A stretch of DNA of 64,000 nucleotides from Paracoccus aminovorans (GTDB lineage Bacteria > Pseudomonadota > Alphaproteobacteria > Rhodobacterales > Rhodobacteraceae), in NCBI RefSeq assembly GCF_900005615.1, contig NZ_LN832562.1, positions 186,001-250,000 on the forward strand, given 5' to 3'. The position numbers and the translations under genes were made by a program. How positions within the stretch are numbered: position 1 is the stretch's first letter; every line of letters starts with the position of its first letter. A model generated the notes under the pieces. That model had not been told where the DNA came from, searched no databases, and worked only from the letters and a program-made list of their open reading frames with translations. Positions 30,488-42,817 of this stretch are shown piece by piece.

Positions 30488-30601
30488 TCAGATCTTCGTC
30501 ACGAAGGTCCGCGCATGATAAAGCGCGAGCAGCGGCAGGCCGATGCAGACGACGGTGGCGGCGATCACGCCGGGCATGCCCCAGGCGAAGAATTCGATCA
30601 T
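30488..30601 (-). CDS. Small single-span membrane protein (37 residues)
   Basis: A 37-residue open frame with a strong ribosome site (GGAGGGA, 8 bases before ATG) and an ATGA overlap with the preceding gene. It is one membrane helix (GVIAATVVCIGLPLLALYHA) with a short N-terminus MIEFFAWGMP and a basic end FVTKI. The length, coupling and ribosome site argue that it is real although it is short. It may be an accessory subunit of the DMT transporter encoded two genes upstream. I do not recognise a family. Confidence 0.6.
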   Translation of the reverse strand: MIEFFAWGMPGVIAATVVCIGLPLLALYHARTFVTKI

Positions 30602-30897
30602 GCTGTTCCCTCCAACAGGCCGGTCTGGCGCATTCTCTCGCGTCCGAAGGAGTTCAGACGATAGCGGTTCAACAGTTTCTCGGCCCCGGCCGTGCTGCTG
30701 GGGTCGATCTGCGACTCGATGTGATGGATCAACCCGCCCGCATGCAGATCGGTCAGCGTCATGCGGATGGTGCCGGCCCAATAGGGGCCGCTCAGCCCGT
30801 ATTCCCTCAGGATCACGTCCCGGATCTCGTGGTCCCACAGGGACTCGGCGCGTTCCAGCAACTGCAGGATGCGGCCCTTCAGATGGATCTTGCCCAT
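30598..30897 (-). CDS. Small winged-helix-like protein
   Basis: 99-residue protein with a probable winged helix-turn-helix: ILQLLERAESLWDHEIRDVI, then WAGTIRMTLTDLHAGGLI. It could be a small PadR- or MarR-like regulator, or a protein-protein adaptor. It starts 3 bases after the transporter stop on the same strand and overlaps the 37-residue gene by ATGA, so the three form a coupled unit. No effector domain is present. Confidence 0.7.
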   Translation of the reverse strand: MGKIHLKGRILQLLERAESLWDHEIRDVILREYGLSGPYWAGTIRMTLTDLHAGGLIHHIESQIDPSSTAGAEKLLNRYRLNSFGRERMRQTGLLEGTA

Positions 30898-30900
30898 GGT

Positions 30901-31956
30901 TCAACCTTTCTCCACCGCGCGAATGACTTCGAGCACGCCGCGGCCTTCCGTGAACAGGATGAAGCTGCCCGTCACCGCGACGGCGGCCCCCATGGCGAAC
31001 CAGATGTCCGGCGCGAGCCCGCCGAAGATCCACAGGTAGACCAGCGACAGCGGACCATAGAGCGCCGCGATGGCCTGGCCGCGGCCGACGCCGATCAGCG
31101 GGAACGACTTGTACCAGGAGACATAGCAGAAGGCGAAGGTCATCCCCATCAGCACCAGCATGTGCCACACCCCGGGCTGCGCAAGCGCCGTCTGGATCGA
31201 GATCCAAAGCTGGTCGCCGGCCAGCATCCAGGTCACCGGCACCCCGACCACGACCCAGATCAGCAGTTCGGCGGTGAAACGCAGAGTCAGGCCGACGTCG
31301 GGATCGCTGACGTCCAGCGCCCGTCCGGCGACGGCGCCCTCGAGCCCCCAGCCGATAAAGGCCAGCGCGCCGCCGATATAGCCGATCCAGCGGCTGTTGC
31401 CGCCTTCGCCGCGCAGGTCGCCGATCAGGCCGGGCAGGAAGATCAGCACCGCCCCGGTGACCAGGACCAGCAGCCCCACGGTCGCCCGGGCGGTGATGCG
31501 TTCGTTATACCACAGGCGCGCCAGCATGGCGCCGACCAGCGGATAGAGCAGCCCGGCCACCGCGGCGAAGCCCGGCCCGACATAGACCATGGCGACATAG
31601 GTGCCGAAGATCGCGCAGCCGCCCGCCAGACCCGCGGGCAGGTACCAGAGCGAGATCTTGGGCTGACGCAGGGTGCGGAAATATTCCCCGGTCTTGCCCA
31701 GCGTGCCGACCCAGAGAAACATGAAGACCAGAACCGCGATCGCGTTCAGAAACGCCACCACCATGGCGGCAAGAAGGTTGTCCGCATTGCCGCCCTGCGT
31801 CAGCTGGACGAAGGGCTGTTCGTAATAGATCGCATAGCCGGGCACATACCAGGCGGCCCACAGGACCGCGCACCAGAATGCCCAGATGAAGCCCCATCGG
31901 ACCTGATAGTTTCGGCTCTTCTCTCTCAGAGCCTGAAGTGTAACGCCAGATGCCAT
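30901..31956 (-). CDS. EamA/DMT-superfamily transporter
   Basis: 351-residue inner-membrane protein with ten predicted helices in two EamA repeats, starting at WGFIWAFWCAVLWAAWYVPG. Typical repeat ends are AGLLYPLVGAMLARLWYNERI and AALYGPLSLVYLWIF. It is longer than most EamA proteins (about 300). Its place after the trimethylamine-dehydrogenase and GcvT-like genes suggests that it moves a methylamine, methylated osmolyte or a degradation product, direction unknown. GGAGG lies near the ATG. Confidence 0.9.
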   Translation of the reverse strand: MASGVTLQALREKSRNYQVRWGFIWAFWCAVLWAAWYVPGYAIYYEQPFVQLTQGGNADNLLAAMVVAFLNAIAVLVFMFLWVGTLGKTGEYFRTLRQPKISLWYLPAGLAGGCAIFGTYVAMVYVGPGFAAVAGLLYPLVGAMLARLWYNERITARATVGLLVLVTGAVLIFLPGLIGDLRGEGGNSRWIGYIGGALAFIGWGLEGAVAGRALDVSDPDVGLTLRFTAELLIWVVVGVPVTWMLAGDQLWISIQTALAQPGVWHMLVLMGMTFAFCYVSWYKSFPLIGVGRGQAIAALYGPLSLVYLWIFGGLAPDIWFAMGAAVAVTGSFILFTEGRGVLEVIRAVEKG

Positions 31957-32017
31957 TCAATCCTCCCGTATTGGATGGGCGCGGCAGCCGGCCTTGCGGT
32001 TTTGCCCGCTTTTGTTC

Positions 32018-40869: not shown

Positions 40870-40917
40870 GGGTTCCCTCTCCCTTTCTCTTCCGCCCTCC
40901 GGGGCGGGTCGAAAACG

Positions 40918-41688
40918 TCAATGTCGGTTGTCGTCAGGTTGCCGTGTCTCGGCGATCAGCAGCGCGCCGCCGAGAAACTTGCGCAGGTCGTCGAAGGTGG
41001 TCGGCTTCTCGCCCGGCCAGCGGTCGCACAGCCGCGCGGGCGGCGGCTGGCTACGGGATGCCGCGTCCAGATGCATCGCGACCTCGCCCGCCAGGCGCAG
41101 CGCATGGCCGCGCAGGCTGCGGTCGTAGGCGCCCCAATGCAGGGCCTCGCTTTTTAGGTGGAACAGCGAACTGCGGCCGCGGCGGGCGATGGTCATGCTG
41201 TCGATCCAGCCCGAGACCGCGCCCCAGCGCCGCAGCGCCGCGGCATAGCGGCGGCGGGCCAGGCTTTCGCGTCCCGCCAGGCGGGCGCCAAGGCCCAGAT
41301 TGGCCTGGCTGGCCGCATAGCGGGGATCGTCGCGGCGAAAGCACAGCAAGGCGACGCGCCAGCCCAGCTGCCAGTCCCGCAGCGCCGCCGCCGTATCGCC
41401 GTCGCGCAGCGCATCGAGCGCGCGTTCCTGCAGGCGTTCCCAGGCAAGGTCGCAGTCGCGCCAACCGGCGGCACGAGCCGCAGCCTGCGTCGCATCGCCG
41501 GCAAGACCGGTTTCGGCGCATTCGGAAAAAATCATCAGAAAACTGGCGCTTGCGCCCGGAAGGTCGCGGGGCTTTCCCGCCGCGGCAATGCCATCGCCGT
41601 GGATCACGAAGGCAGGCGCGTCGCCATGACTTCTGCGTCCGCCGCCCTGCGCTACCGCAGGCGGCGTATCCTCCATGTGGGTTAGCAT
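40918..41688 (-). CDS. Hypothetical protein, first gene of TMADH operon
   Basis: 256-residue soluble, helix-rich protein that I do not recognise. The middle part (AWERLQERALDALRDGDTAAALRDWQLGW, in two parts; then YAASQANLGLGARLAG) resembles degenerate tetratricopeptide repeats. The start at 41688 has an excellent GGGGAGGAG ribosome site. It is the promoter-proximal gene of the operon, 48 bases before TMADH. It may help assembly or flavinylation of TMADH, but this is only suggested by position. Confidence 0.75.
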   Translation of the reverse strand: MLTHMEDTPPAVAQGGGRRSHGDAPAFVIHGDGIAAAGKPRDLPGASASFLMIFSECAETGLAGDATQAAARAAGWRDCDLAWERLQERALDALRDGDTAAALRDWQLGWRVALLCFRRDDPRYAASQANLGLGARLAGRESLARRRYAAALRRWGAVSGWIDSMTIARRGRSSLFHLKSEALHWGAYDRSLRGHALRLAGEVAMHLDAASRSQPPPARLCDRWPGEKPTTFDDLRKFLGGALLIAETRQPDDNRH

Positions 41689-42058
41689 ATCTCCTCCCCG
41701 AGACAGCTGCCTGCATCATTCGACCCGTTTGAGCCGATTGTTACCAATTTCTCCCGATACTGCCTCTTCAGGCCGTTGAACGAGGGGTAACAACCAATCT
41801 GTAACACAGTCCGCCGAAAGATTTCAACAAAATGCTAAAATCCTTCTCGATTTCGCAATAATTGGTTGACTTTCGTATCCAAGTGACACAAATTGGATCG
41901 TCCTTGCCGCTTTCTCGTTACTTTCCAATGCAATACCAAAAACAACCAATCTCGCTCTATCGGTCCTATTGGTTGCCAAATTCCTCCCGTCCCTTGCCCA
42001 TCCGCCCCGCCACCCAGCGAATCATCCCGGGGTCCGCCCCGCAAAAGGAGTCCGACAC
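41689..42058. promoter_or_regulatory. AT-rich divergent control region, TMADH operon and gntR
   Basis: 370 bases without a gene, much richer in A and T than the rest of the window. It contains exact CAACCAAT at 41791-41798 and 41943-41950, exact ATTGGTTG (its reverse complement) at 41861-41868 and 41968-41975, and the related ATTGTTACCAAT at 41737-41748. The last pair is an inverted repeat with a 17-base spacer. These are likely sites for the adjacent FadR-type GntR regulator, spread over about 240 bases. Confidence 0.7.
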
Positions 42059-42817
42059 ATGACCGAGGTTCTGGATCCGCCGTGGGAAACCGAGGGCGAG
42101 GTGCGCTATCCCGTCACCGCCAAGGCCCGCGACCTGGCCGACCGGCTCTTCGGCGAGATCGTCGCCGGCGTATACGGTTTCGGCACCCGGCTTCCGGCCG
42201 AGCGCGTCTTGTCCGACACCCACGATCTGTCGCGCAGCACCGTGCGCCAAGCCTTGGGATTGATGGAAAGTTTCGGCATCATCGAACGCAGGGTCGGCAG
42301 CGGATCGGTGGTCTGCTTCAGCCGCCGCCAGCCGGCGCCGGAAGCGGCCGCACCCCCTGCCGGCATCCTGGACCTGACCGAGATCGGCAGTTCCACCAGC
42401 CCGCTGGAACTGGGCGTGGTGCGCTCGATCGTCGAGCCCGAGATCGCGCGGCTCGCCGTCTTGAACATGACCGCGCGCGACATCGAGGCGATCAAGGCCG
42501 TGCAGGCCGAAATGGAAGAGGTCATGACCAATGGCGAGCAATTCGCGGCGCTGGAGGACGCCTTCCGGATGCGGCTGGCCTCGGGGACGCACAACCCGCT
42601 TCTCGAGGCGGTCTATGCCATGGTTAACCAGGTCCGGCGCGACGCCAGCTGGTCGGTGCAGCGGCGGTGGCGGCTGTCACCGGCCAGGATCCGGGAATAC
42701 AAGCTGCAATACCGCTCGCTCTGCGAGGCGATCGAAAGCCGCGACATCGAGAAGGCGGTGGAGTTCGTCCGGCTGATGCTGGCGGACGCGCATCAGGACC
42801 TGATGCCGGGCGGCTGA
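42059..42817 (+). CDS. GntR-family regulator, FadR/FCD type
   Basis: 252-residue transcription regulator divergent from the TMADH operon. The N-terminal winged helix has FGTRLPAERVLSDTHDLSRSTVRQAL (in two parts) and VGSGSVV; the all-helical FCD effector domain starts near VRSIVEPEIARLAV. The start at 42059 follows AAAAGGAG; an ATG at 41969 lies within the operator repeats. It probably responds to trimethylamine or a related compound. Its 3' end overlaps the convergent binding-protein gene by 25 bases. Confidence 0.92.
   Translation: MTEVLDPPWETEGEVRYPVTAKARDLADRLFGEIVAGVYGFGTRLPAERVLSDTHDLSRSTVRQALGLMESFGIIERRVGSGSVVCFSRRQPAPEAAAPPAGILDLTEIGSSTSPLELGVVRSIVEPEIARLAVLNMTARDIEAIKAVQAEMEEVMTNGEQFAALEDAFRMRLASGTHNPLLEAVYAMVNQVRRDASWSVQRRWRLSPARIREYKLQYRSLCEAIESRDIEKAVEFVRLMLADAHQDLMPGG

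Follow-up and report, generated by a model that had tools for sequence, protein, structure and literature searches.

Results

A trimethylamine dehydrogenase island on an extra replicon of Paracoccus aminovorans

The window analysed here is a 64,000-nucleotide stretch of Paracoccus aminovorans DNA (contig NZ_LN832562.1, C4:186001-250000; the assembly, GCF_900005615.1, comprises 4.04 Mb in four contigs), in which a 12,330-base island (positions 30488 to 42817) encodes a predicted trimethylamine dehydrogenase (TMADH), its electron transfer flavoprotein (ETF) and a set of linked proteins. The island sits on a large extra replicon of Paracoccus. Its entire length is 99.1% identical in DNA to plasmid p_IV (1,155,326 bp, conjugative by PLSDB typing) of P. 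aminovorans BM109, a strain from human faeces, which places the host in P. aminovorans or very close to it. All of the ten minus-strand genes and the divergent plus-strand GntR gene described in the original prediction proved to be intact open reading frames (ORFs) by ORF and domain checks. That gene list fell short in one respect: it overlooked a convergent minus-strand gene beside GntR, which adjoins GntR in five other loci. The genes are listed below by window position.

30488..30601, minus strand: 37-aa one-helix peptide (conserved position in loci L004, L005 and L006)
30598..30897, minus strand: conserved 99-aa protein (without Pfam family; linked to the EamA transporter)
30901..31956, minus strand: EamA/DMT-type transporter (PF00892)
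32078..33175, minus strand: GcvT-like folate protein, 365 aa (PF01571, 220.8 bits)
33235..34194, minus strand: EtfA, TMADH-type ETF alpha subunit (1o94_D match)
34191..34976, minus strand: EtfB, TMADH-type ETF beta subunit (1o94_C match)
34998..36404, minus strand: LRV repeat protein, 468 aa (PF01816/PF25591)
36401..38569, minus strand: 722-aa membrane Fe-S protein of the DgcB/FadF/EtfD type, a proposed ETF:quinone oxidoreductase (9ojn match, cysteines)
38671..40869, minus strand: TMADH, 732 aa, predicted flavin mononucleotide (FMN) and 4Fe-4S enzyme (1djn match, residues, tree)
40918..41688, minus strand, likely start near 41535: probable degenerate tetratricopeptide repeat (TPR) protein, 256-aa ORF (named relative and profile)
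42059..42817, plus strand: GntR/FCD transcription regulator (PF00392 and PF07729)
42793..44091, minus strand: leaderless Peripla_BP_6 protein, 432 aa, proposed cytosolic methylamine sensor (PF13458)

Four-base overlaps occur in three neighbouring pairs (99-aa and 37-aa genes, EtfB and EtfA, DgcB-like and LRV, where the LRV start overlaps the dgcB stop), an arrangement that resembles a co-translated operon. The 3' end of the binding-protein gene overlaps that of the convergent GntR gene.

The dehydrogenase carries the residues of TMADH

Aligned over its full length with the Methylophilus enzyme (1djn), the window dehydrogenase scored 1315 bits at 73.2% identity. Residues C30, Y60, S74, W105, Y169, H172, Y174, R222, W264 and D267 (1djn numbering, used throughout for this family) are the same in both proteins, and C345, C348, C351, W355 and C364 are also retained. 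We take C30 to be the site of 6-S-cysteinyl FMN attachment, C345, C348, C351 and C364 to be the 4Fe-4S cysteines, Y60, W264 and W355 to form the aromatic cage, and Y169, H172 and D267 to be catalytic. Every residue for cofactor binding, substrate cage and catalysis that had been claimed from the letters is therefore identical in the alignment, and the enzyme is, by sequence, a trimethylamine dehydrogenase. Such a full-length match, together with a gene block that is seen again in further genera and even a different class, places the island beyond chance.

A second TMADH-family copy, 65.5% identical to the window enzyme, lies 103 kb from the island on the same contig (C4:119132-121339, that is L024:11132-13339). 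It carries Q60, T74 and F105, where the window enzyme has Y, S and W, residues of the TMADH rather than the dimethylamine dehydrogenase (DMADH) type. The Q/T/F triplet, presumably a mark of DMADH, reportedly goes back to work on the Hyphomicrobium enzyme, and the second copy is probably a DMADH. A small ORF that follows it looks cupin-like by eye. Of seven Rhodobacterales loci, six (L005-L009 and L011) have a comparable copy adjoining TMADH, all six bearing the triplet, with 79-82% identity to the second copy of this genome; in L004 none was found within the flank examined. The tandem second copy of L010 (L010:12245-14431) is without Q/T/F and keeps Y60, S74, W105, W264 and W355; D172 and N267 replace H172 and D267 in it.

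A tree of the family (30 rows; L003, L009 with its second copy, L014, L015, L023 and L042 were left out) resolved an alphaproteobacterial TMADH clade (7 rows, 100/100) as sister to the Q/T/F clade (6 rows, 100/100), with support of 100/98 at the fork, and the window TMADH falls outside the latter. The 1djn sequence belongs to a weaker group of eight rows (91/87), with both L010 copies and five rows from betaproteobacterial megaplasmids. The enzymes of L017-L021, which have Ser or Ile169, Asp172 and Phe355, fall into a clade of their own (5 rows, 100/100); in the partial sequence of L023, Phe355 was the one altered position that could be read.

The pathway had been described as complete. Because 103 kb separate it from the DMADH-type enzyme, and because GMAS, the gene for the monomethylamine step, is found on a different contig, the island is incomplete as a pathway.

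The ETF and a DgcB-like membrane protein define a probable electron path

The best PDB match of EtfA is 1o94_D, the TMADH-partner ETF (349.5 bits; beyond its 3clr-3clu forms the next is at 131.5), and that of EtfB is 1o94_C of the same ETF (320 bits; next 144). By this measure, no solved ETF comes closer to that of the island than the partner of TMADH.

The 722-aa protein encoded between TMADH and the LRV protein matches the EtfD structure of M. smegmatis (9ojn) at 255 bits and has the traits of DgcB, FadF and EtfD, namely a membrane N-terminal part (four hydrophobic segments in a simple scan), two 4Fe-4S ferredoxin motifs and a CCG domain. In all 12 aligned proteins, the eight dicluster cysteines (317-391, window protein numbering), the CCG-set cysteines C590, C625, C626 and C665, and histidines 74, 88, 251, 269, 397, 540, 560 and 587 are invariant. 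The two motifs of the first CCG part are without cysteines in 12 of 12, as in DgcB and FadF. In the window protein, GDYASF and TTDPHTF stand at the sites of GCAGAY and TCPHCF of EtfD, so that the cluster D1 cysteines are absent. The accessible part of PMC13083937 describes EtfD as connecting ETF with the respiratory chain, and DgcB and FadF, in which the D1 cysteines are missing, as suggested acceptors of ETF electrons. From homology and gene position, the DgcB-like protein is the probable ETF:quinone step. No other DgcB-like match was found in the genome at E <= 1e-10.

According to the original prediction, this protein replaces the classical ETF:quinone oxidoreductase (ETF-QO). Since a gene for classical ETF-QO lies at C1:2799995-2800297, and another ETF pair at C1:414905-416082, the word replaced is valid inside the island only, and absence of ETF-QO from the genome is ruled out.

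The gene block recurs and is inherited together

The loci compared were 20 named loci and six plasmid matches (five other species and P. aminovorans); matches of 59 and 41 bases (H7 and H8) were dropped. By residues, 18 other loci are of TMADH type (L004-L015, L022 and L037-L041; L015 lacks its N-terminus, and L042, from the same species, was excluded), with L008 and L009, which scored identically, counted as two. Loci L016-L021 and L023 are not of TMADH type and stand outside the 18 (L016 has Y105 and N267; L023 is partial). Flanks often end at contig ends, so misses do not prove absence.

Within the fetched flanks, DgcB, EtfB and EtfA were found together in 14 of the 18 loci, LRV in 13 (these 14 minus L022) and a GcvT-like gene in 15 (weak in L022, at 30% identity). 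A search for co-occurrence of these genes had been suggested as a check, and the linkage of the LRV and GcvT-like genes to the module is real. The DgcB gene lies between TMADH and EtfBA in 13/18 loci and after EtfA in the actinobacterial L022. The TMADH-DgcB-LRV-EtfB-EtfA block recurs in Rhodobacterales and on betaproteobacterial megaplasmids; as the set is present in two proteobacterial classes, this form of the TMADH system is a general one, more than the peculiarity of a single genome.

Loci with altered or partial active sites (L017-L021 and L023), whose dehydrogenases would be TMADH-family enzymes for a different substrate, have DgcB and ETF in four of six cases and LRV in none of the six. 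L016 has a GcvT-like gene and, where its contig ends, a fragment of EtfA (27 residues), without a DgcB or LRV match in the flank examined.

Among 394 genomes of the family, TMADH of at least 83% identity is present in three (this genome, G000, together with G275 and G288). A 59% form occurs in G064; otherwise, barring second copies at 65-66%, none exceeds 50% among the matches listed. LRV at E <= 1e-20 is found in exactly the same three of the 394, a coincidence with a chance probability of 1e-7, and the other same-genus genome among them (G023) has no match for TMADH or LRV. Over 12 loci (L009, L022, L041 and L042 left out), TMADH distances correlate with those of DgcB (r 0.96), LRV (0.89), EtfB (0.87) and EtfA (0.89), with 0/5000 permutations reaching the value in each case. 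The genes of the block have thus been passed on as a unit, although shared inheritance is in itself no proof that they function jointly.

No description of this gene set was found in the open-licence literature, where most subscription papers are missing, in line with the earlier statement that no described trimethylamine pathway has this gene content. TMADH, its ETF and DgcB-type proteins are already known; what appears to be new is the gene setting.

An LRV protein and a probable TPR protein accompany the enzymes

Two soluble proteins of the island had been left without a role. The LRV protein matches PF01816 and PF25591, has no hydrophobic segment in a simple scan, and its named relatives are annotated as hypothetical or LRR. 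The LRV Fe-S domain gave no Pfam match at E <= 0.001, and the protein contains 3 Cys in 468 residues; an Fe-S LRV protein of the Azotobacter type is thereby ruled out.

The 256-aa protein has no Pfam match (none at E <= 5 for the last 205 residues). A P. aminovorans protein that shares 98% identity with it bears the name tetratricopeptide repeat-containing protein, and a profile of 31 sequences recovered relatives near TMADH in L012, L013 and L015 (E 1e-19 to 1e-22). The L012 and L015 relatives, the two tested, are TPR proteins above the Pfam cut-off, whereas the window protein has no such match; it is probably a degenerate TPR protein. Its translation probably begins near 41535, which would give about 205 aa, because 24 of 30 relatives begin 27-54 residues ahead of a WERxQ motif, compared with 82 for the ORF in the window. 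The LRV protein and, probably, the TPR protein are repeat proteins of a complex-holding kind.

The genome has a separate, oxygen-dependent methylamine route

On contig C2 (C2:128001-148000, L060), a methylamine cluster holds GMAS, a Tmm-like flavin-containing monooxygenase, trimethylamine N-oxide (TMAO) demethylase (Tdm; 1165 bits, cut-off 1100), a GcvT-like protein, a PF11927 protein and a paralogue of the leaderless binding protein found in the window. Judged from its genes, this Tmm/Tdm-type cluster is a separate oxygen-dependent methylamine route. A search covering narG, nirS and nosZ found all three in the genome, with nirS-type genes 9-18 kb past the window end. In P. aminophilus, growth on trimethylamine requires tmm1 or tmm2, and the term trimethylamine dehydrogenase is absent from that paper (PMC4543880). 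Anaerobic trimethylamine conversion with nitrate through trimethylamine, dimethylamine and methylamine dehydrogenases is described for Paracoccus sp. T231 and strains PH32 and PH34 in the accessible part of PMC12388299. In view of the Tmm/Tdm-type cluster, of narG, nirS and nosZ and of the T231 precedent, we take the island as a putative oxygen-independent route.

Regulator, promoter region and leaderless binding protein

The GntR gene, kept beside the island in L004, L005, L008, L009 and L011, likely starts at 42059 and not at the first TTG of its ORF (41969). The divergent promoter region contains the sole TTGGnnnCCAA palindrome of the 64-kb window, at 41969; a palindrome is likewise present in this region of L004, the nearest relative, and none was found in the promoter regions of L005, L008 and L011. 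Comparison of TGGT/ACCA half-sites with 2000 single-base shuffles gave 0.0865 for the window, 0.085 for L004, 0.026 for L005, 0.0 for L008 and 0.183 for L011. Ahead of the TPR gene, L005 and L011 each have four TGGT direct repeats at a spacing of exactly 10 bases, L008 has 10-base-spaced pairs and the window (41689-42058) has one ACCA pair. These 10-base-spaced repeats are a possible operator array.

The binding protein is 78-92% identical in L004, L005, L008, L009 and L011, 54% identical to the paralogue that adjoins the Tmm-like gene on C2 (L060:7735-9024) and 47-54% identical to proteins near TMADH in L012, L013 and L015; its best solved relative by sequence reaches 39.8 bits. It starts MSIYRFGAELEMAASMPRHDMRAREP, without a signal, and L004, L005, L008 and L011 have the same start. 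Database relatives numbered 1760, of which 120 were listed; 53 of these 120 have a similar short signal-less start, and in seven an RRx[FLMV] motif occurs within residues 1-40 (P0172, P0180 and P0189 look twin-arginine-like by eye). A crude hydrophobicity scan flagged 37 of the 120 as signal-bearing, with 67 not flagged and 16 unread, and it is unreliable in that many short signal-less starts were flagged. The relatives in L012 and L015 have signal sequences of RRxF type, and a branched-chain-type permease gene adjoins that of L012 (the other transporter genes of L012 and L015 were named by eye). The protein is perhaps a cytosolic sensor whose ancestor was exported and bound methylamine.

In L012:5493-9697 and L015:3251-8803, TMADH and a GcvT-like gene stand near Liv-type ABC genes, the signal-bearing binding protein and the TPR protein. 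This Liv-type set is a candidate trimethylamine importer.

GcvT-like protein, transporter and neighbouring genes

The GcvT-like protein is 42% identical to its counterpart in the Tmm/Tdm cluster on C2. Its best NCBIfam matches, GcvT PRK00389 (233.8) and the C-terminal part of TMAO demethylase (209.8), were both below cut-off, and the curated GcvT cut-offs were missed throughout (233.8 against 300 for PRK00389, 181.1 against 235.85 for TIGR00528 and 176.2 against 459 for PRK13579).

The EamA transporter is linked in L004, L005 and L006 and also, at 52%, in Azoarcus L037. The adjoining 99-aa protein has 66-78% identity in L004-L006 and 53% (partial) in L037. The 37-aa peptide keeps its position in L004, L005 and L006 at 78-89% identity and has one hydrophobic segment (scanned on 36 codons, with the frame shifted by 3 bases). 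Neither small protein has a Pfam match.

Directly downstream of the island, window 29127-30182 encodes a protein of the choloylglycine hydrolase family (CBAH), whose start looks by eye like that of an exported protein, and 28645-28962 a small protein with an H-NS C-terminal domain. On the other side, beside the binding protein, 44461-46740 holds an Asp/Glu/hydantoin racemase and a cytosine/purine/allantoin-type permease.

Discussion

We consider it likely that the island is an oxygen-independent trimethylamine oxidation module in which electrons would pass from TMADH through ETF and the DgcB-like protein to quinone. By homology, TMADH would convert trimethylamine to dimethylamine and formaldehyde, its electrons moving from FMN to the 4Fe-4S centre and on to the co-encoded ETF; EtfD and the gene position suggest that ETF would then reduce the DgcB-like membrane Fe-S protein, and this in turn quinone. 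The GcvT-like protein probably captures the one-carbon unit (formaldehyde) on tetrahydrofolate. Linkage suggests that the LRV protein, as a probable solenoid, docks ETF onto the DgcB-like protein or helps in the assembly of the latter. GntR and the leaderless binding protein probably turn the operon on with methylamine, and the second demethylation would probably fall to the distant DMADH-type paralogue. Because the oxygen-requiring Tmm/Tdm-type cluster is separate, the island module would serve under low oxygen, with nitrate respiration.

Several observations weigh against this reading. TMADH differs from 1djn at V344 (T here) and at Y442 (F here), the latter presumably part of the TMADH-ETF contact in the Methylophilus enzyme. 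Four of the 18 TMADH-type loci (L012-L015) are without a DgcB or ETF match in the flank; L022 has DgcB and ETF without LRV, so LRV is not needed everywhere; and a GcvT-like match is missing in L010 (22 kb) and in L008 and L009 (16 kb). Concordant distances are expected for any co-inherited genes. The classical ETF-QO could accept ETF electrons, and the oxygen independence is read from gene content.

The DgcB-EtfBA layout hints that the island may oxidise another methylated amine, such as dimethylglycine or N-methylproline, through a DgcA-like enzyme. The same DgcB-EtfB-EtfA layout is indeed found in L018, L019 and L023, whose dehydrogenases lack the TMADH active-site residues where these could be read. 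The window enzyme, in contrast, has the TMADH cage and catalytic residues at 73% identity to TMADH, the L017-L021 enzymes differ at Y169, H172 and W355 and keep to their own clade, and the island ETF is best matched by the TMADH-partner ETF. This alternative is very improbable, and on residues and tree we rejected dimethylglycine or another substrate for the window enzyme. Somewhat less remote, though still improbable, is that ETF electrons go to the classical ETF-QO while the DgcB-like and LRV proteins serve another step. The ETF-QO gene and the second ETF pair would allow it; against it stand the grouping of a DgcB-like gene with TMADH and EtfBA, seen in the window as well as in 14 of the 18 other loci, the lack of a second DgcB homologue in the genome (E <= 1e-10) and the homologue EtfD, reported as an ETF electron acceptor in the accessible part of PMC13083937.

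For the binding protein, the signals of the L012 and L015 relatives near TMADH and the permease gene beside the former would fit a protein left over from a transporter that has since been lost, and devoid of any sensing function. We hold this to be rather unlikely given its conservation across five Rhodobacterales loci, the signal-less start shared by 53/120 listed relatives and the 54% paralogue adjoining a Tmm-like gene in the same genome. A bolder version of the oxidation module, which we put forward tentatively and with the balance leaning somewhat against it, is that the DgcB-like protein and LRV (as a true subunit or docking platform) would form a dedicated ETF:quinone complex, a membrane partner of TMADH-ETF also in Methylophilus, with the leaderless binding protein as methylamine sensor.

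TMADH with its ETF is a standard model of inter-protein electron transfer, and the conserved DgcB/EtfD-type neighbour makes the step after ETF directly testable; in the accessible part of a review, the next partner of ETF is given just as a generic ETF:CoQ oxidoreductase (PMC8097209). An LRV protein keeping company with a TMADH system offers a handle on the role of such repeat proteins. With an oxygen-dependent and a probable oxygen-independent trimethylamine route, one bacterium offers a clean setting in which to study when either of them operates, be it in soil, sediment or gut.

In Methylophilus methylotrophus W3A1 (1djn, 2tmd, 1o94), compared here at the level of protein sequences, enzyme and ETF are the same pair as in the island, judged by sequence and by residues; the accessible passages on that system make no mention of DgcB-like, LRV, GcvT-like, TPR, binding-protein or GntR partners. 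For dimethylglycine catabolism in Pseudomonas aeruginosa, we take the gene order to be dgcA-dgcB-etfBA. It is alike in having a DgcB-type membrane protein beside EtfB/EtfA and a TMADH-family dehydrogenase; the island differs in its TMADH-type dehydrogenase, in the LRV gene between DgcB and EtfB and in the GcvT-like gene. EtfD of mycobacteria and FadF of Bacillus are homologous membrane Fe-S proteins, for which uptake of ETF electrons is reported (EtfD) or suggested (FadF), whereas the island protein would serve trimethylamine and not acyl-CoA oxidation, and it is without the first CCG cysteines, as reported for DgcB and FadF in the accessible part of PMC13083937. The aerobic Tmm/Tdm/Dmm pathway of P. 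aminophilus and marine Roseobacter acts on the same substrate and shares a GcvT-type domain or protein, and a related leaderless binding protein adjoins the Tmm/Tdm cluster of this genome as it does the island; that pathway, in contrast, relies on oxygen-needing monooxygenase chemistry and is here a separate second gene set on C2. Finally, the AmiC-type cytosolic sensor presumably resembles the window binding protein as a signal-less relative of exported Liv-type binding proteins, although the window protein adjoins a GntR/FCD regulator and not an AmiR antiterminator.

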